Shown here: positions 16,409 through 63,933 of the stretch, one piece after another
Layout of the letters: each line of letters opens with the position of its first letter
Numbering within the stretch: the first letter of the stretch is position 1
Assembly (NCBI RefSeq): GCF_002892535.1
Contig: NZ_CP024847.1
Coordinates: forward strand, 372,001 to 436,000
Length of the DNA: 64,000 bases
Direction of reading: 5' to 3'
From: Aquella oligotrophica
Lineage (GTDB): Bacteria > Pseudomonadota > Gammaproteobacteria > Burkholderiales > UBA11063
Program-made: the position numbers and the translations under genes
Notes under the pieces: generated by a model
The model's input: only the letters and a program-made list of their open reading frames with translations
What the model was told of the DNA's origin: nothing
The model's database searches: none

Positions 16409-17238
16409 AGATAAAATTTAGCAAAATGCATGGTTTAGGGAATGACTTCATTATTCTTAATAACATTGATTTGAGTTTGGAACTAACAACAGAAATTATT
16501 CAAAAACTTTCAGATCGTAAATTTGGGATTGGTTGCGATCAATTATTAGTTGTTGAGCCTGCAAGCGATGGGCAAAGTGATTTTTTTTATCGAATTTATA
16601 ATAGTGATGGTAGTGAAGCTGGTCAATGTGGAAATGGTGCACGTTGCTTTATTAGTTTTCTTCATTTGCAAGGTTTATCTAATAAAAGTAAGGTGAAATT
16701 ACAAACAAATACACGAGTAATTGATGGGCAGATAATTAATCCGTCGGTAGTAGAAGTTAATATGGGGAATCCAGACTTTAAGCCCGAGAATATACCACTA
16801 AATCTATTCGAAGCCAGTAATTATGAGTTTAAATTTGATAATCAATTAATCCAGTTTACTGCCGCTTCTATGGGTAACCCGCATGCGGTCATTCGTATTG
16901 CTACGCCGGAAATACTTGTAGATAATGAATACTTGACTAAAATTGGTAGCATGCTTCAACAAAGCCCAATTTTCCCGGAAAGTGTTAACGTTAATTTTAT
17001 GTTTGTTGAAAACGAGGGGCAGCTAAGGTTATGTACTTATGAACGCGGTAGTGGACTAACCCTTGCCTGTGGTAGTGGTGCATGCGCCACTGCGGCAGTT
17101 GCGGTTCGCGATGGCTTAGTTCGACAAAAAGTGAAGGTTATTATGCCGGGTGGGGAATTAGAGATTAACTGGACGGATGCTGGTCTATTGATGACAGGAG
17201 AAGCGATTCATGTTTTTGATGGTGAGATTGAAATATGA
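16405..17238 (+). CDS. dapF: Diaminopimelate epimerase
   Basis: A 277-residue enzyme that converts LL- to meso-diaminopimelate for lysine and peptidoglycan. The two catalytic Cys are C75 in GQCGNGARC and C222 in LACGSGACATA. The N-terminal KMHGLGNDFIIL is the usual start of the family. ATGA overlaps join it to the antiporter upstream and the RpfE-like gene downstream, so the three are probably co-translated. Confidence 0.97.
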   Translation: MKIKFSKMHGLGNDFIILNNIDLSLELTTEIIQKLSDRKFGIGCDQLLVVEPASDGQSDFFYRIYNSDGSEAGQCGNGARCFISFLHLQGLSNKSKVKLQTNTRVIDGQIINPSVVEVNMGNPDFKPENIPLNLFEASNYEFKFDNQLIQFTAASMGNPHAVIRIATPEILVDNEYLTKIGSMLQQSPIFPESVNVNFMFVENEGQLRLCTYERGSGLTLACGSGACATAAVAVRDGLVRQKVKVIMPGGELEINWTDAGLLMTGEAIHVFDGEIEI

Positions 17239-18200
17239 GCGAGCTTAATCTAATCATTCCCGGACTGATCTGGGGCGAAGTTGACGACCTTGAATATATA
17301 CTTCATGGGGCAAAATTCGATGCAATCACTAAAATCATTGCTAAATCAAAAAAGACTGATTATGATTTTAGCTATAGTGATTTGATTTATGGGCATGATT
17401 TTTCTGATAACAAACTCTCGCTTGCAGAAAACTATGCTAAAAAGTTAGGTCTGCCGGTTGGGTGCAATTATATCCTCCTTGAGCCAACTAATCTTCGTGC
17501 CGATCGTGACCGCTTATTAATTGCTGAAAGTGATATCCTCCAGCTAAATGAAGTGGAGAGTCTTAATCTGCTTAGTATATTGAACCAACATTTTAATCAG
17601 GATGATGTTTATTTTAGCTATATTAATGAGCATTTATGGTTGGCCCAATTACCATTTTCGGTGAAACATTTTAAAACTTGTCCGATAGTTGATATAATCG
17701 GTTGCAATATTGATGAATATTTGCCTAGTGGTGATAATTATTTGTTATTGCATCGTATTTTAAACGAAGTCCAGATGCTATTTCATAATTTTGAGCTAGA
17801 GGCTAAACGTGAGGAAGAAGGCTTAGTAGCAGTAAATAGTGTTTGGTTCTGGGATAAAAAATATAAGCAGTTACCTTCGGAAATTAATCAAATTATCAAG
17901 CCGGAACGTGGAAGTTTTTTTGTCGAGACTGACTTTATCAATTCTAATGCTGCAATCCTAATTGATAAAGCGTACTTCCCGCTTTGTTATCAGGATAGTT
18001 TTGCGTGGGTTGAGAACCTTAATCTATTAGATAGACATTTAGGTACTGTACTTGGCTTACTGCAAAGTGGTAAAATTCGGTATTTAAAGCTTTGGGTGCC
18101 ACAAAAGGATAAGACTATTGTTTTGCATCTAAATAAATTGAGCTTATATAAATTCTGGAAAAAGGGTAATTATAAACAGTTGGTAACTGATTTCCAGTAA
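17235..18200 (+). CDS. RpfE-type conserved protein (phosphoglycerate-mutase-like)
   Basis: A 321-residue soluble protein. The segments LLEPTNLRADRDRLLIAES (about residue 88), LLHRILNEVQMLFHNFELEAKREEEG (about 172) and VNSVWFW (about 205) match a betaproteobacterial/Xanthomonas family annotated as RpfE-type regulatory protein, which is distantly like cofactor-independent phosphoglycerate mutases. The biochemical role is not established, and there is no sign of DNA binding. The start overlaps dapF by 4 nt. Repeat copy C begins only 8 nt after the stop. Confidence 0.65.
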   Translation: MSELNLIIPGLIWGEVDDLEYILHGAKFDAITKIIAKSKKTDYDFSYSDLIYGHDFSDNKLSLAENYAKKLGLPVGCNYILLEPTNLRADRDRLLIAESDILQLNEVESLNLLSILNQHFNQDDVYFSYINEHLWLAQLPFSVKHFKTCPIVDIIGCNIDEYLPSGDNYLLLHRILNEVQMLFHNFELEAKREEEGLVAVNSVWFWDKKYKQLPSEINQIIKPERGSFFVETDFINSNAAILIDKAYFPLCYQDSFAWVENLNLLDRHLGTVLGLLQSGKIRYLKLWVPQKDKTIVLHLNKLSLYKFWKKGNYKQLVTDFQ

Positions 18201-18207
18201 TATTAAA

Positions 18208-18268
18208 GGTTACTACTCATGCTATGTAAACTCCTGTAACTGAGAGAATATGCAGCAAGAGCAGTTAC
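18208..18268 (-). repeat. Intergenic repeat, copy C (internally deleted, inverted)
   Basis: The reverse complement of this 61-bp stretch matches the right-hand part of copy B (45557-45615) at about 52 of 60 positions, including the shared core TACTCATGCTATGTAA. It then jumps directly to the other outer arm: GTAACTG at 18236-18242 pairs with CAGTTAC at 18262-18268. The inner hairpin of the full copies is therefore missing. It lies in the 100-bp gap between the RpfE-like gene and asmA. Confidence 0.75.
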
Positions 18269-18300
18269 TATTAAAGATTTGAAAGACGAAGCAGATTATT

Positions 18301-20943
18301 ATGAATTATAAAAAAATTATAAGAATTTCCCTAATTAGTGTTGTAAGTATAGTTGGGGTTGGAGTTCTTACGGTTGTAAGTGTTGTTACTCTTGTAAATC
18401 CAAACCGCTTTAAACCACTTATTGAGAAGGCAGCCCATGAAGCAACTGGACGAAAACTGACTTTGGCTGGTGATATTAGCTGGACAGTTTATCCAAATTT
18501 GGGGTTAAAGTTGAATGATGTTAGCCTATCTAATGAAAGTGGTTTTAGTCCGGCAAATATGCTTCAGGTTAAATCAGCCGATGTGGCCGTCGGTTTATTT
18601 CCTTTACTTTATAATCATTTGGTGGTGAAAAATTTAGTGGTTGATGGTCTCACTATGTCATTAGCTCAGCAAAATGGAAAAAATAACTGGACATTTACTC
18701 CTGTTAGCGAACCAAGCACAGCTGGTGGTACTGGTGGCGGCGAGTCGCAAGCAATTCATGTTTCATTGAGTGGCATGAAGCTGTCTAATTTGACAGTTAG
18801 TTATGATGATTATGATGGCAAAATTCACCAAAGTATCAAGCAAGCAAACCTAATGGTTGATAGTGGTTTTGGTGGTGGCATTGAGTATGATTCTAAGGCT
18901 GAATTAATTGATCTATCAAAAGTTAAGTTTAATTATAATGATGATGCTATCGGTGAAATGACATTTACCGCTGCTAACTTTGGTAATCCCAAATTTAGTG
19001 GTGACTTTAAAGTAAGTAAGCTAGCTGCGAATAAATTATTGAATGATTTAAATATAGCAGTTAAAGAGCGTAAAGGTAAAAGCATTCTAAATAATATTAC
19101 CTTTGATGGTAAAGTTTCTGGTACTAAGCAGAATCTGGAACTGGATAATTTTAGTTTTAATCTAAGCGATGCGTTAAAAGGTAAAGTTAGTCTGGTAGCC
19201 AAAGGTTTAGATAAATCACCTAGCTTTAGTGGTGATGTAAATCTTAGTGAAATGGATTTGAAAGCTCTAATGAATCAATCGCCAGTTCAGGTACGTGAGC
19301 TTGAGAATAATAAACTTTTAAAAAACCGTGCTGCGTTTAGTGCCAAATTTAGTGGTGATATGAATAATCTGCGTTTGAATGGTTATCATTTTAAACTTGC
19401 GGATATTATGCAGGCAAGTGGTAATTTACAGGTGAAAAATTTCAAAAATCCAGCGATTGTGGGTGATGTTAGTTTACCTGAATTTAACCTTAATCAAGTA
19501 CTGGATAGCCTGAATGTAGCTACTAAAGAACGTAAAGACAAGCCATTATTGAATAAATTTGCGTTTAGTAGTAAATTTAATGGTGGTTTAAATAGTATGA
19601 CGTTGAGTGGCTATAGTTTCAAGGTTGGTGGCTTAGTTAGTGGTTCTGGTAGTAGCGTGCAAATCCAGAATTTTAGTAATCCGGCAATTACAGGTGATAT
19701 TAATCTGCCAGAATTCAACCTCAATCAGACACTTGATGGTTTAAATATTGCAGCAGCTGATCGTAAGAATAAGCCGCTACTAAATAAATTTGCTTTTCAT
19801 AGCAGATTTAAGGGTGATATGAATAATATGACCTTAAGTGGCTATAATTTCAAAGCAGGTGGAATTTTTGCTGGTTCAGGTAATGGGGTTCAGGTTCAAA
19901 ATTTTGCCAATCCAAAAGTCTCTGGTGATATTAATCTACCTACTTTCTCAGCAAATCAGGTTATGCAGCAAATGGGAATGACACCGCCGGATATTCCAAA
20001 TAAAGCTAGGCTTAATCAGGTGGCTTTACGGACTAATTTTGCTGGTAGCCAAACAGCCATGAATCTTAGTCAGATGTTACTGAAAGTATCTAATACCAAT
20101 ATTAGTGGCAATGTAAATGTTACTTCATTTAAGCCCCTTGCGGTAACTGAAAATATAACTATTGATGCACTCGATGTTTCTGATTTTAGTGATGTAAATG
20201 GGTTTAAGGTACCATTGAAGAATATCCAGATTCAGGGTAATTCAAGCATTGCCGCAAATGGGGAAATGTCGACCTTAAATGGTCGCCAGTCAGTACAGGT
20301 CGGAAATGTTACCTTACTTGGCTTTAGTGTTGATGAACAGGTTCATTATATGGATCGTACCATTAGTGGTAGCAACCCAAATGGTGATGTTTTACGTCAA
20401 CTTGGCAATGCCGTGCAGATTAATCAGGCTATGGATAAGGTTAAGGCTGAAGTAGTTAAGGCAACTTCGCCGGGACCTAAAGATTATAGCAAGAAAACCG
20501 ATCTTGGTAGTTTTGTGACCATTGCTGTAATCAAAAATGGGCTAGTTAATCCTTCAGCATTTAAATTAAGCGGACCAAGTCTAAGCGCCAACGGTGGTGG
20601 TTCAGTGAATTTGGCTACTAAAACGCTTAATTACAATGTAAGCTCGCAGTTGTTAGTATCAGGGATTAACCCTGTATTTAAGAAACTTACCTTCCCGGCA
20701 ACGGTTAAAGGGTCATTTAAAGATCCAAGTCTATCGGTTGACTGGAGTTCAATTACCCAGCAGTTGATAAAATATGCAATTACCAATGGTGGTGACCAGA
20801 TTAAAAATGCGGTTAGTCAAGGAATTAATCAGGCGGTAGGTAATCAAATCCGGCAATCTGTTGGGCAACAGGGTGGTGATCAAGTTATTGATGGTGCCAG
20901 CAAGGCGGTTACCGGAGTTATACAGAATATATTTGGCAAATAG
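18301..20943 (+). CDS. AsmA family protein with five tandem 77-residue repeats
   Basis: An 880-residue envelope protein anchored by one N-terminal membrane segment (about 7-32). The AsmA domain follows (NRFKPLIEKAAHEATGRKLT, then LAGDISWTVYPNLGLKLNDV). From nucleotide 19000 to about 20155 five copies of a 77-residue unit start at 19000, 19231, 19462, 19693 and 19924, always 231 nt apart, each beginning Gly-Asp followed by a beta strand. AsmA relatives form long beta-grooves linked to lipid transport between membranes and outer-membrane assembly. A C-terminal block (about 720-860) is less repetitive. The gene is flanked by inverted repeat copies C and A. Confidence 0.85.
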   Translation: MNYKKIIRISLISVVSIVGVGVLTVVSVVTLVNPNRFKPLIEKAAHEATGRKLTLAGDISWTVYPNLGLKLNDVSLSNESGFSPANMLQVKSADVAVGLFPLLYNHLVVKNLVVDGLTMSLAQQNGKNNWTFTPVSEPSTAGGTGGGESQAIHVSLSGMKLSNLTVSYDDYDGKIHQSIKQANLMVDSGFGGGIEYDSKAELIDLSKVKFNYNDDAIGEMTFTAANFGNPKFSGDFKVSKLAANKLLNDLNIAVKERKGKSILNNITFDGKVSGTKQNLELDNFSFNLSDALKGKVSLVAKGLDKSPSFSGDVNLSEMDLKALMNQSPVQVRELENNKLLKNRAAFSAKFSGDMNNLRLNGYHFKLADIMQASGNLQVKNFKNPAIVGDVSLPEFNLNQVLDSLNVATKERKDKPLLNKFAFSSKFNGGLNSMTLSGYSFKVGGLVSGSGSSVQIQNFSNPAITGDINLPEFNLNQTLDGLNIAAADRKNKPLLNKFAFHSRFKGDMNNMTLSGYNFKAGGIFAGSGNGVQVQNFANPKVSGDINLPTFSANQVMQQMGMTPPDIPNKARLNQVALRTNFAGSQTAMNLSQMLLKVSNTNISGNVNVTSFKPLAVTENITIDALDVSDFSDVNGFKVPLKNIQIQGNSSIAANGEMSTLNGRQSVQVGNVTLLGFSVDEQVHYMDRTISGSNPNGDVLRQLGNAVQINQAMDKVKAEVVKATSPGPKDYSKKTDLGSFVTIAVIKNGLVNPSAFKLSGPSLSANGGGSVNLATKTLNYNVSSQLLVSGINPVFKKLTFPATVKGSFKDPSLSVDWSSITQQLIKYAITNGGDQIKNAVSQGINQAVGNQIRQSVGQQGGDQVIDGASKAVTGVIQNIFGK

Positions 20944-20951
20944 TCAACAAA

Positions 20952-21087
20952 GCAACTGCTCTCACTATAAGGTAATAACTGCGGTACAAAGCTTCTTGTG
21001 TACTTCTTATGTACACGGCGGCGCTTTGTGTCTTGTTCTTCCCTCATATTTTGGCAGTTGCATGGCATTTATGGCTAAGTAGTTACG
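20952..21087 (+). repeat. Intergenic repeat, copy A (nested stem-loop)
   Basis: It aligns along its whole length with copy B at 45481-45615. Three nested stems are visible: outer GCAACTGC (20952-20959) with GCAGTTGC (21054-21061), middle CAAAGC (20987-20992) with GCTTTG (21023-21028), and tip GTGTAC (20998-21003) with GTACAC (21011-21016). Every stem differs from copy B by paired, compensating changes. It fills the gap between asmA and rluB. Confidence 0.8.
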
Positions 21088-21100
21088 AAAAAGGAATCTA

Positions 21101-22171
21101 ATGAAATTAAATCTTAAACAAAGACTTCAGGAAATGATGAAGGAATCTTTTAAACCTAAAGGTGCAAAAGTAAGCCGGGAAAAAACTGAAGTAAAAGATC
21201 TGGCAACTGCTTCGCGAGAAGCAAAAAAAACTCAGGAAAGGCAAGGTAAACGCCGTAAGCCAGTAACTACTGAAAGTAAATCTTTTGATAATGATGCTAA
21301 TCCGCAGCGCAGAAATGCGAAACGGGTGAAACTATATCGTCAGAATCAGCAGGAAAAAATTACTTCACAGCGGATTCGTGATGAGCGGGTTGAATCAAAA
21401 GAGGTGTATAGTGAAAGGCTTGGTAAAGCCCTTGCTATGTCGGGTGTTGCTTCTAGGCGTGATTGTGATGCACTAATTGCATCCGGAAAAGTATTAGTTA
21501 ATGGTAAAACTGCTGAACTTGGGCAGCAAATTACTCAAAAAGACCGGGTGGAAGTACTTGGTAAACCTGTACGCATTAAATGGCAAGATAGGCTTGCGCG
21601 GATAATAATCTATCATAAACCTGAAGGGGAATTAGTTTCTAGAGATGATCCTGAAGGTCGGCAAACTGTTTATGATCGAATCCCACTTTTAAATAATCGT
21701 CGCTTTATGGCAATCGGGCGGTTAGATTATAATACCAGCGGATTGTTGATTTTTACTACTTCTGGTGAATTGGCTAATCATTTTATGCATCCACGCTACG
21801 AAGTTGAGCGTGAGTATGCGGTACGGATTTATGGTGATCCGTTAACTAATGAGCAAATTAGTGAATTAAAGAGTGGGATTGAGCTTGATGATGGAAAGGC
21901 TAAATTCAAGGAAGTTATAAAAATGGAGCGTCAGGATAGTGATGCTAAAAATCACTGGTATAAAGTGGTTTTACTTGAAGGGCGTAATCGTGAAGTTAGA
22001 AGAATGTTCCAGCATTTTGAACTAACTGTTAGCCGTTTGATTCGTACCCGCTTTGGTGTAATTGATTTACCGCCTAGACTAAAGCGTGGTAATTATTATG
22101 AGTTAAATGAAATTGAAGTCGCTAGAGTAATGCAGGCTTTCGAGCTTACTATCGCCGGTACTGAAAAGTAA
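21101..22171 (+). CDS. rluB: 23S rRNA pseudouridine synthase RluB
   Basis: A 356-residue protein. A very basic, low-complexity N-terminus of about 100 residues is followed by an S4 RNA-binding domain ([21 protein letters not shown], about 104-125). The RsuA/RluB catalytic domain carries the Asp in [14 protein letters not shown] (about 205). [11 protein letters not shown] and [10 protein letters not shown] are typical of RluB, which modifies U2605 of 23S rRNA. RluE/RluF-like assignment is less likely because the S4 domain and length fit RluB. The basic tail is usual in RluB proteins. Confidence 0.9.
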
Positions 22172-32200: not shown

Positions 32201-32481
32201 TTGAGTTTGCGATTGAAGGTGTGCGTAAGGAAGCTATGAGCTATAGAGATGCAGCATTACATTCAGCAAGATTACGTTTTAGACCAATTATTATGACATC
32301 AATTGCCTTTATTTTGGGTGCTGTACCGCTGGTTACCGCTTCAGGTGCCGGAGCGAACTCTCAGCATTCAGTTGGTTTAGGGATTATTGGCGGAATGCTG
32401 GGTTCGACATGTATTGCAACTTTATTTGTACCATTATTCTTTGTTTTGGTAATGAATCTATCGAAAAAAGAAGAAAGTTGA
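29287..32481 (+). CDS. RND efflux permease 1 (HAE1/AcrB family)
   Basis: A 1064-residue inner-membrane pump subunit, a drug/proton antiporter. It starts RFFILRPVLSMVISIIIVLAG. The proton-relay Asp pair lies in LAIGIVVDDAIVVLENVERL (TM4), and the relay Lys in LIGLSAKNAILIVEFA (TM10). Two large periplasmic loops carry the usual GANSETIANAVAAPIEDQM and FNQPPIRGMSPTGG features. AGGG 8 nt upstream supports the start. It follows the adaptor gene after 174 nt, in which a lone TATAAT (29194) may allow extra transcription, and it is 1 nt before the TatT-like gene. Confidence 0.94.
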   Translation: MFCRFFILRPVLSMVISIIIVLAGLVSMMVSPIEQYPNIVPPVLNITANFPGANSETIANAVAAPIEDQMSGVPGMIYMQSSSANGSSQMALNVYFQTGTNLEAVEADALNRINTALPQLPSQVQAQGIVMRMKNPDLFMVIPFYSDDGNPSKLYISNYVQRYIYPVLEQIPGVGVVGIIGQRQYAMRALLDPNKLQYYKISIKDIANAVNDQNWPYAIGMNAMAPMSGNEKYNFMINSPGYFTDESQFQNIVLRTNESNAQVVKLKDVAQVKLDAEQYYTYFYTYIKDPATGKVKRLEATAISIYLVPGANQIQVKKAINQVLTDISKHMPAGMKYYYHYDSSEFVILSVEAVISTLITAFILVFFVVMLFIQNIKGTIIPVIAIPVSIIGTFAGTFALGFSINTLTLFGMVLAIGIVVDDAIVVLENVERLMTEEKLGSVEASIKAMEEVAAPVIAIVLVLNAVFVPVAFLGGFSGVLMQQFAVTIAISVLLSGTVALTLTPTLCAIFLRGVSHGHKKEPTFILAKWLEQFFDWFNRAFDKLRDGYMHIVTKIMDNAKIAMAIWGVVLALVIGLFMHIPTGLVPLEDMGYFYNTTHVAPAGSMNYNLEQTERIASAAMKIPGINKVAILGGNDVVDNSSTKTNTSTLSIITDPYEDRTTPETQINPLIAKVNAIDKSIKDVTGFAFNQPPIRGMSPTGGVTFYLQATQPVSVQQIHDDSVKLVQYLQNNYPAVSSAAQFYNVDTPEMYIDIDPQKAYLYGVKYADIFNSMQAVFGNYYINYFTKWEDLWWVILQADYQYRNKPDLLNVIYVKSQNTNQLVPLGSLVNYHYGNGAEVVTRLNDFLASQIVANPNEKAGYTSGAVMDAIVDAVPKLLGKTYAVKWFGPSYQQALAGAQSEIAFGLGLIMVFLILAALFELWSLPLSILMALPFALFGAAITLIIFGKPNDIYFQVSLLTLIGLSAKNAILIVEFAIEGVRKEAMSYRDAALHSARLRFRPIIMTSIAFILGAVPLVTASGAGANSQHSVGLGIIGGMLGSTCIATLFVPLFFVLVMNLSKKEES

Positions 32482-33814: not shown

Positions 33815-36800
33815 ATATTTTCATTCGTCGCCCGATCTTAGCTACCGTGATTTCACTTATCATCATGTTGTGTGGTGCTGTTGCTATGATGAATCTTCCG
33901 GTTAGCCAATTCCCTAGTATTTCTCCACCTACTATTTCTATTAGTGCTTCATATCCTGGTGCCAATGCTGAAACTGGTGCCAAAGTTGTTGCTGCCCAGA
34001 TTGAAAACCAGCTTAATGGTGTTGCAAATCTGATGTATATGATGACATCAACCACTTCAACAGGAACAATTTCGATCACTCTTTACTATAATGTTGGTAC
34101 GGATACCAACTATGCTATTAATGAGGTTTTAAATCGTTTGCAGGCAGCAATGCCATTATTACCTATGACCGTACAGCAGCAAGGGGTAACCGCGCGTAAA
34201 AGCTCTCCAGATATGTTGATGATGGTCTCGTATTATTCTGATCCATATATAGATCCTAAGTGGGTGAGTGAATATTTACAGCGTACGGTAGAGAATGATT
34301 TATTGTTATTGCCTACGATTGGTACGGTAAGTGTTTTTGGGTCTGGTTCATATGCGATAAATGTTTGGTTTGATCCAAATAAAATGCAGCGTTATAGCGT
34401 TACTGTAAATGATCTTCAGAGTGCAATTGAAGACCAAAATGAGGAATATATTGTTGGGCGAAGCAACGCTGTACCAAATGAGGCAGAAAGCCGACTGACA
34501 ATTAATATGACTGGTCAGCCAATGTACTCTACTCCAGAACAGTTTGGCAATATCATACTTAAAAATAATAATAACCAGACGGTAAGAATAAAAGATGTGG
34601 CAAGGGTCGAGCTTGGATCAAATAATTATAATACAATAGCCCAAGTTAATTATCGTGATGAAAATGGTAAATTTAAAAATTATCCATGTACGCTGATGTT
34701 TATTTACACTGTGCCAAATGCCAATCAACTTGAAGCTAGGCAGCAAGTTTTAGATAAAATAGCTGAAGATGCCAAACGCTTTCCATTTGGATTGAAGTAT
34801 CGAGTTACTCTTGATAATTCAAAATTTGTTGCAGCTTCAGTCAAGAATGTTAATGAAACATTACGTATAGCATTTTTACTAGTTGCAGTCATTATTTATC
34901 TATTCTTACAAAATTGGCGTGCTAGTGTTATTGCAATATGTACCATCCCAGTTTCAGTAATAGGAACTATGGCGTGTCTTTATATGGTCGGCTTTTCGCT
35001 AAATACACTTAGTCTATTTGCCCTGATTTTGGCAATCGGGATTGTTGTTGATGATGCCATAGTTATTGTTGAGAATATTGAACGGCTTCGTGAAGAACAT
35101 CCGGAGTGGTCATTGCGCAAAGTAATTGAAGAGACTATGCAGGAGGTTTTTGGGGCAATTGTTGCAATTGTTCTGGTTTTAAGTGTCGTATTTGTTCCGG
35201 TGATGGCTTTGGGTGGGTTAAGTGGTATAATGTATCGCCAGTTTGCTGTAACGATAGCCTGTGCGGTTGTTTTATCCGGTATTTGTGCCCTTACTTTTAC
35301 CCCAGCAATTAGTCATCTTATTTTGAAGTCGGGCATGGAAAAGCCAAAATTTCTTGCTTGGTTTGATGTATGGTTTGCTAAACTTACTAAGTTTTATGTT
35401 AACCTAGCCACTTATTTAGTTCATCATAAAAAAACCGCTATAATGGTTTGGCTTGCGGTTGTAATCGGTATGGGAGCCATGTTTAAGGCCGTTTCTCTTG
35501 GGTTTGTACCTAGTGAAGACCAAGGGCTTATTTTTTCGACGATTAATTTGCCTTCCTCAAGTAGTCTTGAAGCAACTAAAGCTAAAGTAAATCAGATGGT
35601 AGAAAAACTTACTAAAAATCATAGTATTGATACGATAACGAGTGTGACAGGACTTGATTTTCTTGATTTTAGTAGCCAAAAAACCTACTCTGCTTCAATC
35701 TTTATTGTTTTGAAGGATTGGGATTTACGTAAAACTAAGGACAGTAGTGCTGATTATATTATTGATCAGGTAAATGAGTTTGGTAAACATGAGCCGGGTA
35801 TGGTGATCCGAGCTTTTAACCAGCCAGCAATTCGTGGTTTAAGTACTACTGGTGGTTTAGAGTTTTTTATTGAAGATCGGGTGATTGGTGATCCAAAAAA
35901 ACTCCAGAAAGTCGTTGCACAATTCATTGAACGAATGAAAAAACATAAGGAAGTTGCAACTGGGTTTCAGACTCTTGATACCAATGTACTTAGTATGTCG
36001 ATCTTACCTGATGTTGATCGTGCTAAATTTTATGGCGTAAATCTGAATACACTGTATGATTCAGTTCAGGCTATGTATAGTAGCTATTATGTAAACTACG
36101 CTTATATTATGCAGGATTTGGTATGGGTGATTCTTGAGGCAGATTATCGCTTCCGGGCAACTTTACAGAACCTTGATAATGTATTTGTTCACTCAACTAC
36201 AACAGATAAGATGATTCCAATTAATAGTGTAGTTAAAATCAGTACCTCAACAGATGCTCAGGTAATTCAGCGCTTTCAGGATTATTTTGCTTCTAAGGTA
36301 ACATTAATTCCTGCACCTGGTTATTCAATGGCTGATGTTATGAAAGTTGTAGTTAATGAAGTTCAGAATATTCCTAAAGGGTATAATTATGACTGGTTTG
36401 GTACCAGCTTTCAGCAACAACAATCAAAATCTACTTCAGGAATAGCTTTTTTATTTTCGTTGATAATGATTTATCTGGTGCTGGCAGCGTTGTATGAGAT
36501 GTGGCGCTTACCTTGGGTGGTTATGCTTGGAATTCCATGTGCACTATTTGGTTCAGCTGCCATATTACTTATTAGTGGTCGAACCAACGATCTATATTTT
36601 CAGATTAGCTTACTTGCACTACTTGGTTTATCAGCAAAGAATATAATTCTATTAACTGAGTTTGCCCTACAGATTATGAAAACTGGGGTAAGTTCTGAAG
36701 AAAGTGCGATTCACTCTTTGGAGTTACGATTTAGACCAATTGTAATGACCTCAGTTACATTTATATTTGGTACGTTACCTTTGGTTTTTGCTGATGGCGC

Positions 36801-36930
36801 AGGTGCCAATGCGCAACACTCAGTTGGTTTGGGCATTATTGGTGGGATACTTGGTTCAGTTTTAATAGGAACTTTATTAACTCCAGCCTTTTTTGCCATG
36901 ATTATGAAGAATAAAGAAGTTAAAAAATAA
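33805..36930 (+). CDS. RND efflux permease 2 (HAE1/AcrB family)
   Basis: A 1041-residue permease starting LNIFIRRPILATVISLIIML. The relay Asp pair is in LAIGIVVDDAIVIVENIERL and the relay Lys in LLGLSAKNIILLTEFAL. Loop motifs (GANAETGAKVVAAQIENQLNG, FNQPAIRGLSTTGG) are those of AcrB-type pumps. It is followed after 24 nt by a third permease with no adaptor of its own. Two permeases in tandem resemble MdtBC/MuxBC, whose subunits form a mixed trimer, although those belong to a different branch. Its ribosome site seems supplied by the overlapping short frame at 33752. Confidence 0.93.
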   Translation: MRLNIFIRRPILATVISLIIMLCGAVAMMNLPVSQFPSISPPTISISASYPGANAETGAKVVAAQIENQLNGVANLMYMMTSTTSTGTISITLYYNVGTDTNYAINEVLNRLQAAMPLLPMTVQQQGVTARKSSPDMLMMVSYYSDPYIDPKWVSEYLQRTVENDLLLLPTIGTVSVFGSGSYAINVWFDPNKMQRYSVTVNDLQSAIEDQNEEYIVGRSNAVPNEAESRLTINMTGQPMYSTPEQFGNIILKNNNNQTVRIKDVARVELGSNNYNTIAQVNYRDENGKFKNYPCTLMFIYTVPNANQLEARQQVLDKIAEDAKRFPFGLKYRVTLDNSKFVAASVKNVNETLRIAFLLVAVIIYLFLQNWRASVIAICTIPVSVIGTMACLYMVGFSLNTLSLFALILAIGIVVDDAIVIVENIERLREEHPEWSLRKVIEETMQEVFGAIVAIVLVLSVVFVPVMALGGLSGIMYRQFAVTIACAVVLSGICALTFTPAISHLILKSGMEKPKFLAWFDVWFAKLTKFYVNLATYLVHHKKTAIMVWLAVVIGMGAMFKAVSLGFVPSEDQGLIFSTINLPSSSSLEATKAKVNQMVEKLTKNHSIDTITSVTGLDFLDFSSQKTYSASIFIVLKDWDLRKTKDSSADYIIDQVNEFGKHEPGMVIRAFNQPAIRGLSTTGGLEFFIEDRVIGDPKKLQKVVAQFIERMKKHKEVATGFQTLDTNVLSMSILPDVDRAKFYGVNLNTLYDSVQAMYSSYYVNYAYIMQDLVWVILEADYRFRATLQNLDNVFVHSTTTDKMIPINSVVKISTSTDAQVIQRFQDYFASKVTLIPAPGYSMADVMKVVVNEVQNIPKGYNYDWFGTSFQQQQSKSTSGIAFLFSLIMIYLVLAALYEMWRLPWVVMLGIPCALFGSAAILLISGRTNDLYFQISLLALLGLSAKNIILLTEFALQIMKTGVSSEESAIHSLELRFRPIVMTSVTFIFGTLPLVFADGAGANAQHSVGLGIIGGILGSVLIGTLLTPAFFAMIMKNKEVKK

Positions 36931-36954: not shown

Positions 36955-39900
36955 ATGCTACGGTTTTTTATTAATAATCCTGTATTTTCATCGGTAGTTT
37001 CAATTATTATCGTGATTTGTGGTTTGGTGGCTATTTTTAATTTGCCGCTAGCAGAATATCCAAATATTGCTCCGCCAACGATTACAATTACCGCTCACTA
37101 TCCTGGTGCCAATGCCGAGACTATCCAGAAAACCGTAGCGTCTCCAATTGAAGATCAGGTAAATGGTGCCAACCAGATGATTTATATGAATTCTGTGATG
37201 TCTAGTAATGGCGATTACAATCTGGTAGTTACTTTTGCGGTAGGTACCAATCTGAATGCCGTTATTGGTGATGTTTTGAATCGTCTGAATACTGCATTAC
37301 CAATGCTTCCCCAGATGGTTCAAAATCTTGGTGTGACCATGCGTAAGAGTTCACAAAATGTCTTGATGTCTATTTCAATGCAGACGGATGGGCGTCAGGA
37401 TCAGGTATATTTAAGTAATTATACTTATCGGGCTATTTATACTGAGCTAGTAAGGGTTAAAGGTGTTGGTGATGTCCAAATGGCTGGTGCACGTACTTAT
37501 TCTATGCGAATTTGGTTACAGCCAGATAAAATGCAAAAGCTTGGTGTAACACTTACCGACGTCCAAAATGCAATTAATGAACAAAACGTTCAGGTTGCAG
37601 TGGGGCAAGTCGCAGCGCCGCCAGCAACTGGACCAAGCCTCATGACAATTAATTTAGTTGGTCAGAGTTATTATAGCGATCCGAAACAATTTGAACAAAT
37701 TGTCGTACGGAATAGCGGAGTTCAGTATATCCGGATTAAAGATATTGCCAGAGTTGAGCTTGGGGCATTTAGTTATGATACTATCAATAAGCTTGATCAT
37801 GATTCTACTATTGGATTACAGATTTATCTTGATCCAAGTGCGAATCAGTTGGCAACACATGCTGCAATTATGGAAACGATGGAGCGGTTGGGTAAACAGT
37901 TCCCAGATGGTATAACTTATAAAATATCCTTTGATAATACAAAATTTATTAAAAAAGCCTTGACCAACGTTGCTGAAACGCTACGTGATGCATGTATTCT
38001 AGTTGTATTAGTCGTATTCTTATTCTTACAAAAAGGTCGGGCAACACTTATTCCGATTCTAACCATTCCGGTTGCAGTTGTTGGTACTTTCGCAGGGATG
38101 TATGCTACTGGTTTCAGTATCAATAACCTGACCCTTTTTGGCTTGATTCTATCGATTGGTATCGTGGTTGATGATTCAATCGTGGTTATCGAAAACGTTG
38201 AGCGGATCATGGAACAACAGAAGTGTAGTGCCAAAGAAGCTAGTATTAAGTCGATGGAAGAGGTTGCGAGCGCGCTAATTGCTATTGTCTTGGTACTATG
38301 TTGTGCATTTATTCCTTCAGCATTTCTGGGTGGCTTAACCGGGATACTTTATCAGCAATTTGCAGTAACTATTGCAATTTCTGTAGTTTTATCTGGGATT
38401 GTCGCATTGACTTTGACACCTGCTTTGTGTGCCATAATGCTTAAAGATGGTCATCAGGTAGAAGTTAAAAACAGATTTTTTGTCGCATTTAATAAAGGTT
38501 TTGAGAAGTTTACCGATGCTTATATTTTTGCGGTAAAGCTTTTACTTGAAAAACGTAAACTATTTATGGGCGTCTTTGGTGGCGTGTTATTACTTACTGC
38601 ATTTATTTATCATATCATGCCAGTAGGGTTCATTCCAAATGAAGATAAAGGGTTCTTTATGACCCAAATTACGTTGCCAAATAATGCCTCGTTACAAAGA
38701 ACTGAAAAAGTAACGGATGATTTTGTTACTTATCTCCTAAAAGATAAGAAGAATATTGAAAACAGTATTAGCCTTATTGGGATTGATCAATTGCATGCGG
38801 GGTCAGTAAAAACCAATGTAGCTACAATAACTGCGGACTTGGTGGATTGGGATGAGCGAAAAGATGATGTTAATGTCTTAATTAGTAGAGCTAATCAATT
38901 TGGCAAAACTTATAAAGATGCGAATTTTCTCTCATACAATCAGCCTGCTATTGATGGTATCAGTAATACTAACGGTATAGAAATGTATATTCAGGATAAA
39001 GTAACCGGTAGTTATGTTGACCTAGATAATTATGCCAAGAAAATGACGGCTGAATTAAATAAAAGCCCACTAGTTGAAAGAAGTTATTATACATTTAATC
39101 CTTATAATCAGGCTTATAATGTTTTGGTAGATATAGATCGAGCTAAATTTTATGGTTTGCAGGTTTCTGATATTTATAATCTGCTTGAAGCTAATTATGG
39201 ACCAGATCTAGTGAATTATTTCTACCGGATGGGTGATTTATTCTGGGTAACTGTTCAAAGTGATTTTGAATACCGTAAGAGCCCTGAGCAGTTAGATAAT
39301 TTATATGTCAGAAATTCAAATGAGTCAATGGTACCAGTTAACTCGGTGGTTAAAACTAGTATGTCAACTTCACCTGACGTGATTGAACGAGTTAATGATT
39401 ATCTAGCAACGAAAATTGTTGTAGAACCTAAAGATGGTATCACCATTTCTCAGGTTATACAGTTAATGAATGATGTCGCTACTAAAGTCTTGCCTAAAGA
39501 ATATAGCTATACTTGGTATGGTGTCGCATACCAGCAGGCAAATACTGGAACAACGTCAACCTTTGCCTTTGCTTTTGGTATGATTATGATCTTCCTAGTG
39601 TTGGCTGGTCAATATGAAATGTGGCGTTTACCATTTGTGGTAATAATGGGGATTCCATTTGCGTTATTTGGTGCTGGAGCTATTTTATTGATGCGTGGCT
39701 TAGACAATGATCTCTATTTCCAGATTAGTCTGATTACCTTACTAGGCTTATCCGCTAAGAATGCGATTCTGATTGTTGAATTTGCGGTAGAACACTGGCG
39801 CGAAGGTGCAAGTACAGTTGATTCAGTGTTAATCGCAGCTAGACAACGGTTTAGACCAATTATCATGACGTCGCTTGCCTTTATTTTGGGTGCTTTGCCG

Positions 39901-40062
39901 TTGGCAATTGCGCATGGTGCCAATTCGAATGCTGAACACTCAGTTGGGACTGGTATTATTGGTGGGATGCTTGGTTCAACTTTGATTGCAATTATCTTTG
40001 TCCCACTATTCTTTGTGGTAGTTATGGGTAAAAAAACTTATACTAAGCCGGAAGATGAATAA
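36955..40062 (+). CDS. RND efflux permease 3 (HAE1/AcrB family)
   Basis: A 1035-residue permease starting LRFFINNPVFSSVVSIIIVI. The relay Asp pair is in LSIGIVVDDSIVVIENVERI and the Lys in LLGLSAKNAILIVEFAVEH, so it should be active in proton coupling. It differs enough from permease 2 over both periplasmic loops that it is not a recent duplicate. It follows permease 2 by 24 nt and precedes corA by 19 nt. It may share the lipoprotein adaptor at 27841 or one encoded elsewhere. Confidence 0.93.
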   Translation: MLRFFINNPVFSSVVSIIIVICGLVAIFNLPLAEYPNIAPPTITITAHYPGANAETIQKTVASPIEDQVNGANQMIYMNSVMSSNGDYNLVVTFAVGTNLNAVIGDVLNRLNTALPMLPQMVQNLGVTMRKSSQNVLMSISMQTDGRQDQVYLSNYTYRAIYTELVRVKGVGDVQMAGARTYSMRIWLQPDKMQKLGVTLTDVQNAINEQNVQVAVGQVAAPPATGPSLMTINLVGQSYYSDPKQFEQIVVRNSGVQYIRIKDIARVELGAFSYDTINKLDHDSTIGLQIYLDPSANQLATHAAIMETMERLGKQFPDGITYKISFDNTKFIKKALTNVAETLRDACILVVLVVFLFLQKGRATLIPILTIPVAVVGTFAGMYATGFSINNLTLFGLILSIGIVVDDSIVVIENVERIMEQQKCSAKEASIKSMEEVASALIAIVLVLCCAFIPSAFLGGLTGILYQQFAVTIAISVVLSGIVALTLTPALCAIMLKDGHQVEVKNRFFVAFNKGFEKFTDAYIFAVKLLLEKRKLFMGVFGGVLLLTAFIYHIMPVGFIPNEDKGFFMTQITLPNNASLQRTEKVTDDFVTYLLKDKKNIENSISLIGIDQLHAGSVKTNVATITADLVDWDERKDDVNVLISRANQFGKTYKDANFLSYNQPAIDGISNTNGIEMYIQDKVTGSYVDLDNYAKKMTAELNKSPLVERSYYTFNPYNQAYNVLVDIDRAKFYGLQVSDIYNLLEANYGPDLVNYFYRMGDLFWVTVQSDFEYRKSPEQLDNLYVRNSNESMVPVNSVVKTSMSTSPDVIERVNDYLATKIVVEPKDGITISQVIQLMNDVATKVLPKEYSYTWYGVAYQQANTGTTSTFAFAFGMIMIFLVLAGQYEMWRLPFVVIMGIPFALFGAGAILLMRGLDNDLYFQISLITLLGLSAKNAILIVEFAVEHWREGASTVDSVLIAARQRFRPIIMTSLAFILGALPLAIAHGANSNAEHSVGTGIIGGMLGSTLIAIIFVPLFFVVVMGKKTYTKPEDE

Positions 40063-43694: not shown

Positions 43695-44333
43695 ATGCGC
43701 AATAAAAAATATTGGTTAATTATTCTAATCTCGGCTATCATTGGTCTGGTATTTGCCCGCGATGATATTCTTAATCAGTTTGAACAGTTATTTGGGCATA
43801 GTGGTTCACCACATCCAACGGTAGTTAATGCAACGGGAACTATTGAAGTTGCTTTTAGTCCGAATAATGGTGGAACGGCTACTATAGTCAAGGCAGTCAA
43901 TGAGGCAAAGCAGACTATTCTGGTATCAGCGTATAGTTTTACCTCCAAAGATATTGCTAATAGTCTTCTGGATGCCAAGAAACGTGGAGTAACTGTAAAG
44001 TTAATTTTGGATAAATCACAAGTAAGTCAGAAATATTCTTCGAGTACTTTTTTCGCTAATCAAGGCTTTGATATGCGGATTGATGTCAAGCATGCTATTT
44101 ATCACGATAAGGTAATGATTATTGATGATAAAACTGTAATAACAGGATCTTTTAATTTTACCAAAGCTGCTGAAACGAAAAATGCCGAAAATCTCCTTGT
44201 GATAAGAGATAATCCTGAACTTGCTAAATTATATACCCAAGATTGGTGGTTTAACTGGCAGCAGGCGGTCTCACGCGATGAATTCTTTGCCAACTATAAG
44301 ACAAAATCGAAACGAAATAATGATGATGAATAA
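43695..44333 (+). CDS. Phospholipase D-like nuclease, membrane anchored or exported
   Basis: A 212-residue protein. An N-terminal hydrophobic segment (YWLIILISAIIGLVFA) is a signal or anchor. A single PLD motif, HAIYHDKVMIIDD (H-x-K-x4-D, about residue 137), is followed by GSFNFTKAAE, as in the Nuc/endonuclease subfamily that works as a dimer. Likely a periplasmic nuclease, possibly for DNA salvage. The end overlaps the start of the next gene by about 14 nt. Confidence 0.82.
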   Translation: MRNKKYWLIILISAIIGLVFARDDILNQFEQLFGHSGSPHPTVVNATGTIEVAFSPNNGGTATIVKAVNEAKQTILVSAYSFTSKDIANSLLDAKKRGVTVKLILDKSQVSQKYSSSTFFANQGFDMRIDVKHAIYHDKVMIIDDKTVITGSFNFTKAAETKNAENLLVIRDNPELAKLYTQDWWFNWQQAVSRDEFFANYKTKSKRNNDDE

Positions 44334-45480
44334 GCAAATATTTAACCTTACGCATGAAGAGCAGTTACTTACGGATAAGCTTTCTTCAGTTATCAAAGAA
44401 GAAATTAGTAAAAGTGGTGGTTTGATTCCATTTAAGCGTTATATGGAATTGGCATTATATTATCCCGGACTTGGTTATTATAGCAATCCCCGCCAAAAAT
44501 TTGGTAAGGAAGGTGACTTTATTACTTCCCCGATGGTCTCTTCGTTATTTGGCAATACTCTTGCCCGCCAGATTCTGGAAGTGATAAATTTTGGTGTATT
44601 CCCTCAAGTGCTTGAGTTTGGTGCTGGAAATGGTAAGCTAGCGGCAGATATATTAAATTCAATCGGTAGCGAAATTACCTCCTATTGTATACTGGAGCTA
44701 AGTGCCGATCTAATTGCGTTACAGAAAGAAACTATCCAGAAAATAGCTGGGGATTATTTTGATAAGGTAGTCTGGCTTAATGAGTTGCCAGAGAAATTTG
44801 ATGGGGTTATCATTGCCAACGAAGTTCTTGATGCTCAACCCTGTGAATTACTTTATCGTAAGGGGGATAGCATTCACGAAATCGGGGTTAGCTATACTGC
44901 CGAAGGTAAATTTATCTATAAAGACTATGATTCGAGCTGGCAAGCTGATAACGATGATATAACTAATCATTGGACTAATGGTTATCAAAGCGAGTGGCAT
45001 GGTGCCAATTCTGCTTTTATTAAAACCCTTGCTACTAAGCTTAATCATGGTGTGATCTTACTGATTGACTATGGCTATGGACAAACAGAATACTACCATC
45101 AAGAGTTTTATAAGGGGCGATTAAGAGGATTCTTCCGCCACCACCTCCTTGATGATGTTCTTATTTATCCCGGGTTAATTGATATTACTACCAGTGTTAA
45201 TTGGACAAAAATAGCTACCACTGCAATTGATGCTGGTTTGGATTTGATTGGCTATGTTAATCAAGCCGCATTCTTGATTAATGCGGGGATTGCTGAAACA
45301 ATGGGTGAATTAAGAAAGAACTTGTCTAATGATGAATATATCAAGCTGTCAAATCAAGTAAATCAGCTAGTCTCGGCAAATCAGATGGGCGAATTATTTA
45401 AGGTAATGGCATTAAGTCGTGGAATTGATGAAGCCGATTGGTGTGGCTTTAGATCTGGAGATTTAAGCTATACACTGTAA
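44320..45480 (+). CDS. SAM-dependent methyltransferase, MidA/NDUFAF7 family
   Basis: A 386-residue protein. GGLIPFKRYMELALYYPGLGYYSNP (about 25-50), GKEGDFITSPMVS and the SAM site VLEFGAGNGKLAADIL (about 98) are characteristic of the PF02636 (DUF185) family. The mitochondrial member NDUFAF7 methylates an Arg of complex I; the bacterial role is unclear. Three consecutive ATG codons at 44320, 44323 and 44326 are all possible starts; all overlap the nuclease gene slightly. The frame open further upstream is not used. Repeat copy B begins at the base after its stop. Confidence 0.85.
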   Translation: MMMNKQIFNLTHEEQLLTDKLSSVIKEEISKSGGLIPFKRYMELALYYPGLGYYSNPRQKFGKEGDFITSPMVSSLFGNTLARQILEVINFGVFPQVLEFGAGNGKLAADILNSIGSEITSYCILELSADLIALQKETIQKIAGDYFDKVVWLNELPEKFDGVIIANEVLDAQPCELLYRKGDSIHEIGVSYTAEGKFIYKDYDSSWQADNDDITNHWTNGYQSEWHGANSAFIKTLATKLNHGVILLIDYGYGQTEYYHQEFYKGRLRGFFRHHLLDDVLIYPGLIDITTSVNWTKIATTAIDAGLDLIGYVNQAAFLINAGIAETMGELRKNLSNDEYIKLSNQVNQLVSANQMGELFKVMALSRGIDEADWCGFRSGDLSYTL

Positions 45481-45615
45481 GTAACTGCCGTACTATCTCG
45501 CAATAGCTGCGTTGCAAGGCTCCTTATTTACTTCTCATGTAAACCGCGTCGCCTTGCTTCTTGCTCTTGCTACATATTCTGGCAGTTACAGAGCTTACAT
45601 AGCATGAGTAATTAC
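45481..45615 (+). repeat. Intergenic repeat, copy B (nested stem-loop)
   Basis: A 135-bp element. The outer stem is GTAACTGCC (45481-45489) with GGCAGTTAC (45581-45589), the middle stem GCAAGGC (45514-45520) with GCCTTGC (45551-45557), and the tip TTTAC (45527-45531) with GTAAA (45539-45543). Paired differences from copy A keep every stem intact. It starts right at the stop codon of the methyltransferase gene and may double as its transcript end. Confidence 0.8.
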
Positions 45616-45680
45616 CATTGTAAGTAACTACATATATACAAAAAAATTTATGGTTATTTGGAATTGATTGGAAATAAAAG

Positions 45681-47030
45681 ATGATTAAAAAACCTGAATT
45701 ATTATTACCCGCTGGGACATTCAGGCATTTGGAATATGCCTATGATTTTGGTGCCGATGCAGTATATGCTGGCCAACCAAGATATAGTTTACGTGCTCGG
45801 AATAACGAATTTAAGCTAGAACAGTTACAAAAAGGAATTGAAGAAGCTAGAGTTCGAGGTAAAAAACTATATATCGCGAGTAATATTCTACCACATAATG
45901 CCAAGATAAAAACCTACCTGAAGGATATGGAGCCATTAATGGCAATGAAACCAGATGCTTTGATTATGGCAGATCCTGGGTTAATCATGATGGTAAAAGA
46001 CCGTTGGCCTGAAGCTGAAATTCATTTGTCGGTACAGGCTAATACGGTTAATTATGCTGGAGTAAAATTTTGGCAAAGACAAGGAATTTCGCGGGTAATT
46101 TTATCGCGTGAGTTGTCGCTTGATGAAATAGAAGAAATCAAACAGCAATGCCCAGATATGGAAATAGAAGTTTTTGTCCATGGGGCATTATGCATTGCTT
46201 ATTCTGGACGTTGTTTATTATCTGGATATTTTAATCGCCGCGATCCAAATCAAGGGACTTGTACCAATGCCTGTCGTTGGCAATATAAAGTCCATGAGAC
46301 AGATAGCAATGATGCAGGAGATGTTACGCTAACTACAAATAATTCATCAGAGGCAGATGAATGTCATTCATTAACCTCGGCTGCGGGTGGTGTTGTCCGT
46401 AATAATTGTGCTAATGATTCATACTTATTGGAAGATGTTACCCGTCCGGGTGAGTATATGGAAATTAATGAAGATGAGCATGGTACATATATCATGAACT
46501 CAAAAGATCTGCGTGCGATTGAACATGTTGAACGACTAGTTAAGATCGGTGTTGATTCGCTTAAGATTGAAGGGCGTACCAAGTCAATCTATTATGTTGC
46601 GCGAGTTGCTGCTGCTTACCGGCGTGCAATTGATGCTGCCGTCTCTGGGGAAGCGTTTAATCCAGACCTTTTAGCTGATCTTGAGGGCTTGGCAAATCGT
46701 GGTTATACCGATGGCTTTTTGCAACGCCATCATGCCGAAGATTACCAGAATTATCTGGATAATCATTCCAAATCAAGGCAAAGCCAGTTTGTTGGGGAAG
46801 TGCTTGAAATCGATGCCAATGGTTATGCATTGGTGGAAGTAAAAAATAAATTTAGCATTGGGGATAAATTGGAGATTCTTCACCCATCAGGAACGCGAGT
46901 AATTGAGCTTCAGGAAATGCAGGATAAAGTTGGAGCACAAGTTTCTGTTGCCGCTGGTAGTGGTATTTATGTAAGGCTTCCGGGAATGGCTGGGATGGAA
47001 AAAGCTCTGATTGCCAGAGTCATTAATTGA
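45681..47030 (+). CDS. trhP: U32 family peptidase, TrhP (YegQ)-like
   Basis: A 449-residue protein. It starts PELLLPAGTFRHLEYAYDFGADAVYAG. The U32 signature EVFVHGALCIAYSGRCLLSGY (about 166-187) holds conserved Cys, followed by GTCTNACRW; further Cys fit an Fe-S site. The length and C-terminal beta-barrel match E. coli YegQ/TrhP, which acts in 5-hydroxyuridine formation on tRNA. RlhA is a longer relative. Residues about 215-255 form an acidic, Ser/Asn-rich insertion. It is preceded by repeat copy B. Confidence 0.85.
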   Translation: MIKKPELLLPAGTFRHLEYAYDFGADAVYAGQPRYSLRARNNEFKLEQLQKGIEEARVRGKKLYIASNILPHNAKIKTYLKDMEPLMAMKPDALIMADPGLIMMVKDRWPEAEIHLSVQANTVNYAGVKFWQRQGISRVILSRELSLDEIEEIKQQCPDMEIEVFVHGALCIAYSGRCLLSGYFNRRDPNQGTCTNACRWQYKVHETDSNDAGDVTLTTNNSSEADECHSLTSAAGGVVRNNCANDSYLLEDVTRPGEYMEINEDEHGTYIMNSKDLRAIEHVERLVKIGVDSLKIEGRTKSIYYVARVAAAYRRAIDAAVSGEAFNPDLLADLEGLANRGYTDGFLQRHHAEDYQNYLDNHSKSRQSQFVGEVLEIDANGYALVEVKNKFSIGDKLEILHPSGTRVIELQEMQDKVGAQVSVAAGSGIYVRLPGMAGMEKALIARVIN

Positions 47031-63683: not shown

Positions 63684-63769
63684 GGAGAGGTTACCCAAGC
63701 GGTCAACGGGTCCGGACTGTAAATCCGGCGGCAATGCCTTCGCAGGTTCGAATCCTGCCCCCTCCACCA
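63684..63769 (+). tRNA. tRNA-Tyr (GTA)
   Basis: An 86-nt class II tRNA with a long variable arm. The anticodon GTA lies in the loop CTGTAAA, the T-arm is GCAGG-TTCGAAT-CCTGC, and CCA is encoded (63767-63769). The acceptor stem GGAGAGG/CCCCTCC has one A-C mismatch at pair 5-68, where G-C is usual. First of Tyr-Gly-Thr. Confidence 0.95.
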
Positions 63770-63859: not shown

Positions 63860-63933
63860 GCGGGAGTAGCATAGTGGTAATGCAGAAGCCTTCCAAGCTT
63901 ATGATGAGGGTTCGATTCCCTTCTCCCGCTCCA
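63860..63933 (+). tRNA. tRNA-Gly (TCC)
   Basis: A 74-nt tRNA with acceptor GCGGGAG/CTCCCGC fully paired, anticodon TCC in the loop CTTCCAA, T-loop TTCGATT and encoded CCA (63931-63933). Confidence 0.95.

Follow-up and report, generated by a model that had tools for sequence, protein, structure and literature searches.

The repeat at 45481..45615 (+) of the window, the 64,000-nucleotide stretch of Aquella oligotrophica DNA analyzed here, is a full-length copy of a MITE. The element is about 135 bp long, which is too short for a transposase, has terminal inverted repeats, and is present in many copies. It is flanked by 8-bp target duplications and tends to lie at the stop codons of genes, and its older copies mostly run in the same direction as the preceding gene. 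It is a new family of a known kind, with an unusual placement and orientation pattern; no description of this hairpin family was found in the literature searched, mostly without subscription papers. The reading we prefer, with a probability of about 0.68, is that an IS66-type DDE transposase acting in trans inserts the MITE at stop codons, that sense copies are then retained, and that their hairpin is tolerated or used as RNA. The insertions of the family form a natural series: recent ones have an intact duplication and occur in both orientations, and ancient ones are common to several species and mostly sense. With this series, how junk mini-transposons turn into gene-end signals becomes testable.

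A. oligotrophica P08, of the Neisseriaceae, was isolated from tap water (PMC6612550). The accessible text of that paper does not mention repeats, insertion sequences, transposition, palindromes, mobile elements, or MITEs. The genome forms a single contig of 2,820,660 bp. The repeat at 45481..45615 (copy B, 135 bp) was delimited by comparing the ends and lengths of 24 copies and by alignment. Its hairpin core of nested stems (45481..45589, +) was defined by paired changes and folding, and the tail with the 3′ terminal inverted repeat (45590..45615, +) by copy comparison. The left target duplication, CACTGTAA (45473..45480, +), holds the stop codon of the preceding gene and is matched at 7 of 8 positions by the right one, CATTGTAA (45616..45623, +). 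The preceding gene encodes a putative SAM-dependent methyltransferase (Methyltransf_28; 44221..45480, +), and the following gene encodes a TrhP-type tRNA hydroxylase of the peptidase U32 family (45681..47030, +).

Copy A (20952..21086, +) is also a full-length element of 135 bp, with no recognizable duplication (3/8). It lies between a gene of the AsmA family (18301..20943, +) and a pseudouridine synthase gene whose nearest model is RluB, below that model's cut-off (21101..22171, +). The first-pass annotation had described copies A and B as aligning end to end. Both are in place and align over their full length; the end of copy A is 21086, not 21087. A third copy in the window, copy C (18209..18268, −), was absent from that annotation. 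It is an internally deleted element of 60 bp with both ends kept, and its target duplication (CTTTAATA on the minus strand; 18201..18208 and 18269..18276, both −) matches at 8 of 8 positions. The gene with its stop codon facing copy C (17235..18200, +) has a sub-threshold DUF3491 match only.

The ends of the element are GTAACTGCTC and AGTARTTAC. Its terminal inverted repeats read GTAACTGCTCGGACTAT at the 5′ end and GTAATTACTCATACTAT as the reverse complement of the 3′ end. A hairpin of about 110 bp closing at GGCAGTTAC is followed by a tail of about 25 bp. Target-site duplications were found, and their length is 8 bp. In 24 copies, 119 of 192 flank positions matched, a count that includes five copies with misplaced 3′ ends, whereas shuffled flanks matched at 69.6 positions on average and at no more than 97 in any of 20,000 shuffles. 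The mean flank identity was 0.62 at a duplication length of 8, compared with 0.28–0.41 at lengths of 4–7 and 9–12. A duplication matching at 7/8 or more positions was present in 26 independent copies. One copy (L015, G000:C1 2520006-2520152; G000 is the A. oligotrophica genome) has a 12-bp hairpin insertion, giving a perfect palindrome, GGGACACACGTGTCC, nearby, and its 8-bp duplication is perfect.

BLAST with the core of copy B as the query gave 24 places in the own genome at E ≤ 1e-4, including copy B itself; copy A was absent from this list. A covariance model (R2) was trained on 43 cores, of which 19, copy A among them, came from the own genome. It gave 38 own-genome matches at E ≤ 1e-3. 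Three of these duplicate a listed copy on its other strand. The remaining 35 places include 28 at E ≤ 1e-11 and one that adjoins another. Copy A was found at E 8.5e-25, being itself in the training set. The repeat is dispersed, as the first-pass annotation had proposed from two copies. In the window, Rfam matched two tRNAs only at the gathering threshold and did not match the element. Three of the 28 strong own copies occupy 23S–5S spacers, each in a different rRNA operon, and run antisense to the rRNA. These copies (L171, L173, and L174, at G000:C1 ~1684034, 575415, and 807458, respectively) lie about 23 bp past the 23S end.

Placement was described from 129 copies, drawn from eight genomes in the genus. 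They represented 114 independent insertions after orthologues were joined, and 111 without the rRNA copies. Gene context was taken from a crude ORF caller. The 129 did not include three own copies (L016, L018, and L023), three fragments (L031, L036, and L040), and weaker model matches. Among the three own copies, L023 is sense and has a stop at −3, the partial L016 faces a stop at 8, and the partial L018 is antisense and away from a stop. A stop codon was located at −28..+12 nt of the facing end in 78 of the 111 independent copies. The fraction was 57/67 for copies that have a duplication or score 60 bits or more and 54/62 with the bit filter alone. In the window with elements removed, 36% of intergenic-plus-last-28-nt positions were that close to a stop, as were 33% of AT-rich positions and 12% of purely intergenic ones. 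Because the end of the element can itself create a stop, empty sites were rebuilt. Of the 26 independent copies with a duplication, 21 have a native stop at −32..+10 nt from the insertion point, and the other five lack one; the offset of one copy in this count (L068) is ambiguous, with two differing ORFs.

Orientation was analyzed in same-direction gene pairs. In the set of 67 copies, those with a duplication were 10 sense and 10 antisense, whereas high-confidence copies without one were 32 sense and 2 antisense (Fisher 3.2e-4). When all 111 copies were used, the ratio without a duplication was 55:10 (Fisher 0.0048). With the bit filter alone, it was 10:6 with and 32:2 without a duplication (Fisher 0.0091). 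Sense copies seem to be kept over time. That older copies mostly run in the direction of the gene hints that some may serve the host.

Insertions shared between genomes were compared. Seventeen cross-genome locus pairs were orthologous; one insertion was common to G000, G014, and G022, and another to G000, G019, and G003. For four G014–G022 pairs, the divergence was 0.096 in the hairpin (1.3% gaps), 0.158 in the tail plus flank (20% gaps), and 0.10 in the upstream 300 nt. The oldest insertion compared, a single one between G000 and both G014 and G022, gave 0.305 for the hairpin and 0.479 for the tail plus flank; this hairpin diverges more than the nearby upstream coding DNA (0.153). For eight G000–G019 pairs, the values were 0.037 and 0.042, respectively, with no difference between hairpin and tail. 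These data lend modest support to the idea that the hairpin is constrained but do not prove it.

The family with its ends, duplication, placement, orientation pattern, and paired changes is observed directly; mobilization of the IS66 type, selective retention of sense copies, and a role as RNA are inferred. In the mechanism that we propose, a DDE transposase supplied in trans, most likely of the IS66 type, would recognize GTAAYTRCTC-type ends. Insertion of the hairpin element of about 135 bp would take place in either orientation at AT-rich sites around gene stops and would generate the 8-bp duplication. Copies sense to the preceding gene would be kept far longer than antisense copies. The duplication and the tail would decay, and the hairpin core would change less. 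The most plausible cause of this retention is that a sense hairpin enters the transcript directly behind the stop codon, where the cell would tolerate it or use it as an RNA structure at the gene end. It could then act as an RNase substrate or a barrier to decay, functions known from Correia and ERIC elements.

The paired changes were examined in the added copies. Those quoted in the first-pass annotation for the outer, middle, and tip stems are all present in the sequence. For 18 own copies, double changes were observed in 12 of 29 pairs, against a shuffled mean of 4.5. For 43 copies from four genomes, they were observed in 18 of 33 pairs and 64 cells, against 9.0 and 21.8 in shuffles. In both cases, 0 of 500 shuffles scored as high. 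As the copies are related and some are orthologues, the double changes are not independent events. The 33-pair structure was drawn by hand from the arms, and slid structures scored far worse on the 43 cores; RNAalifold alone on these cores keeps 10 inner pairs only. When folded as single-stranded DNA, copy B was 4.0 sd better than shuffles on the plus strand and 6.0 sd on the minus strand. The value was 3.0 sd for copy A and only 0.7 sd for copy C.

The annotation had concluded that the structure itself seems to be kept. The stems are indeed backed by paired changes in the added copies, but pairing may also stem from palindrome correction during replication. By themselves, paired changes do not prove that a palindromic DNA repeat yields a functional RNA. 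This bears on the strongest alternative, a selfish MITE with no function, which we regard as a serious possibility though the less probable one. Gene-end sites would then be the least harmful ones, paired changes would reflect template-switch correction of palindromes, and antisense copies would be mildly harmful and lost. Template switching is reported to yield compensatory changes and to make and repair stems (PMC8794818). In the 43 cores, G-U cells (44) and A-C cells (52) were about equal, which means that RNA selection is not required; palindrome correction, like selection, may have preserved the pairing. The same count was made for 80 copies after alignment to the model. Among the 55 of them that are sense and lack a duplication, A-C cells outnumbered G-U cells (67 and 43), again as a selfish element would predict, and four other copies had 5 G-U and 7 A-C. 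In the 21 copies with a duplication, the relation was reversed, with 37 G-U and 16 A-C, which speaks against that alternative. Overall, the counts do not favor selection on one RNA strand; the subset with a duplication leans to G-U.

Other observations divide between the two readings. A selfish element is consistent with the G000–G019 pairs, where no hairpin constraint is visible, and with the lack of a promoter or a good terminator. Neither an intrinsic terminator nor a promoter was found in copy B, and copy A has one weak terminator-like match. Retention of sense copies accounts better for an orientation pattern that shifts with age, for hairpins better kept than tails between G014 and G022, and for insertions common to three species.

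A doubtful alternative is that orientation is set by the direction of replication and not by transcription, hairpins on one replication strand being lost more. In the own genome, 23 of 31 non-rRNA copies are in the leading-strand orientation, judged from a flip of GC skew near 1.4 Mb at sampled loci. Gene direction and replication direction are confounded in this count, because genes themselves favor the leading strand. Some sense copies at stops (L003, L004, and L175) oppose the leading strand, which speaks against this alternative.

The end sequence and the duplication suggest that the element is mobilized by an IS66-type transposase acting in trans, which is likely, not proven. IS66 elements are reported to have 8-bp repeats and ends starting with GTAAGCG (PMC11946415). 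The same repeat length is also reported for ISPve1 (PMC3281130), so it is not unique to IS66. The MITE ends begin with GTAA but continue as GTAACTG, diverging from the canonical GTAAGCG. The element carries no transposase, and a search of the own genome for the IS66 transposase family gave 0 matches; congeners do carry IS66 elements, with the transposase present in 6 of 23 genomes of the genus. In one of them (L092, in G014), 9 of the 13 right-end positions that follow GTAA agree with each MITE end; of the 792 GTAA sites in the window, one does as well. The left end of L092 matches at 8/13, and this element has no target duplication (2/8). Another IS66 element (L093, in G003) has a perfect 8-bp duplication, and its end shares 6/13 only. 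The end of a third (L091, in G001) shares 3–4/13. At a further locus (L098), an IS66-type end lies next to a transposase fragment; this locus does not enter the comparison.

A sister MITE was found in a congener (G009). It is 144–145 bp long, has the same anatomy, and has 24 end matches in the genome. Its end shares 12 of 13 positions with the L092 element, though it starts with GTTA. Six distinct two-ended copies were examined, of which four have perfect 8-bp duplications and one is a 72-bp deletion form. The six copies that could be placed in gene context show no tight placement at stop codons. Its loci in G009 are L119, L124, L128, L133, L135, and L157.

The element was compared with known repeats. 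The annotation had likened it in style to the Correia elements (CREE, nemis) of Neisseria. The likeness in style holds: both are short MITEs in many copies, with hairpin-forming inverted repeats, from the same broad bacterial group. The target duplication and position differ by description, and the two are not the same family. CREE are reported to insert at TA, with some at CA, and 76 of 123 in one strain are 5′ of a gene (PMC2649163), whereas our element makes an 8-bp duplication at gene 3′ ends. Transcripts of CREE are reported to be RNase III substrates (PMC2649163). ERIC, likened by description, is also a MITE, and a copy at a gene 3′ end can alter mRNA decay in Yersinia according to a review (PMC10969869).

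REPs of the GTAG and CGTC families are palindromes near ORF 3′ ends, and their termini, notably GTAG ends, often supply the stop codon, as described in PMC3733652. This resemblance raises the alternative of a REP-like element mobilized by a RAYT tyrosine transposase, which is very improbable. REPs are 20–40 bp long with tag motifs, RAYT mobilization is hypothesized for them, and the accessible text of that paper describes no 8-bp duplication; our element has such duplications, carries inverted terminal repeats, and measures 135 bp. Both REPs and Correia elements are analogues of the element and belong to other families. A non-mobile family of structured RNA genes would explain nested stems with covariation but is scarcely credible, given target duplications, sites that differ between genomes, no Rfam match, and no overall G-U excess.

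The distribution of the family was analyzed with several searches. BLAST with the consensus matched 5 of 61 genomes, all within this genus. Among the matches listed, R2 hits were present in 9 of 13 chosen genus genomes, and none was among those listed for the other four (G002, G004, G007, and G012). A 20-base pattern in genome contigs found 12 stretches, of which 10 contained the element, in three MAGs, and 2 were due to chance. A strict end-to-end pattern, which misses congeners known to carry the element, was applied to 399 genomes of the order and matched 3, each belonging to this genus. No match to the element was found in plasmid and phage collections, nor in viral contigs with one strict pattern.

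Outside the genus, R2 matched hairpins in 4 of 58 genomes of an order sample at E ≤ 1e-3 and in 3 of 113 genomes of a class sample at E ≤ 1e-5. These hairpins have similar tips and different ends. Since the model rewards any palindrome and the E-values are rough, they are a lead only. The loci are L241–L248 (G066, G060, G058, and G026) and L249–L252 (G878, G803, and G799). G066 has five near-identical copies of such a hairpin repeat with a similar directional tip. An exact pattern for the tip motif matched 0 of 398 genomes and no viral contig; it also misses the own genome, so this result is uninformative. A bolder and rather unlikely extension of our reading is that the transposable element aims at stop codons and gives genes a ready 3′-end hairpin, which the host keeps in sense only. 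The directional tip (roughly CTCCTY-RTKTAC ... GTAMAC-NGCGTCG) might then be a module common to hairpin repeats that have other ends and occur in different families across the order and class, kept as DNA and not as RNA.

An apparently older subfamily was also observed, in which GTCACAA replaces GTTGCAA in the hairpin and the 3′ arm is changed. It includes L019, L021, and L024 in the own genome and L114 and L130 in G022. Apart from the element, the window has two tRNA genes at its right end (63685-63765 and 63860-63930) and three direct repeats of 207 nt with 66–73% identity (32248-32454, 36700-36906, and 39820-40026). The latter sit near the ends of three ORFs of 1035–1064 aa, which may encode related transporters.
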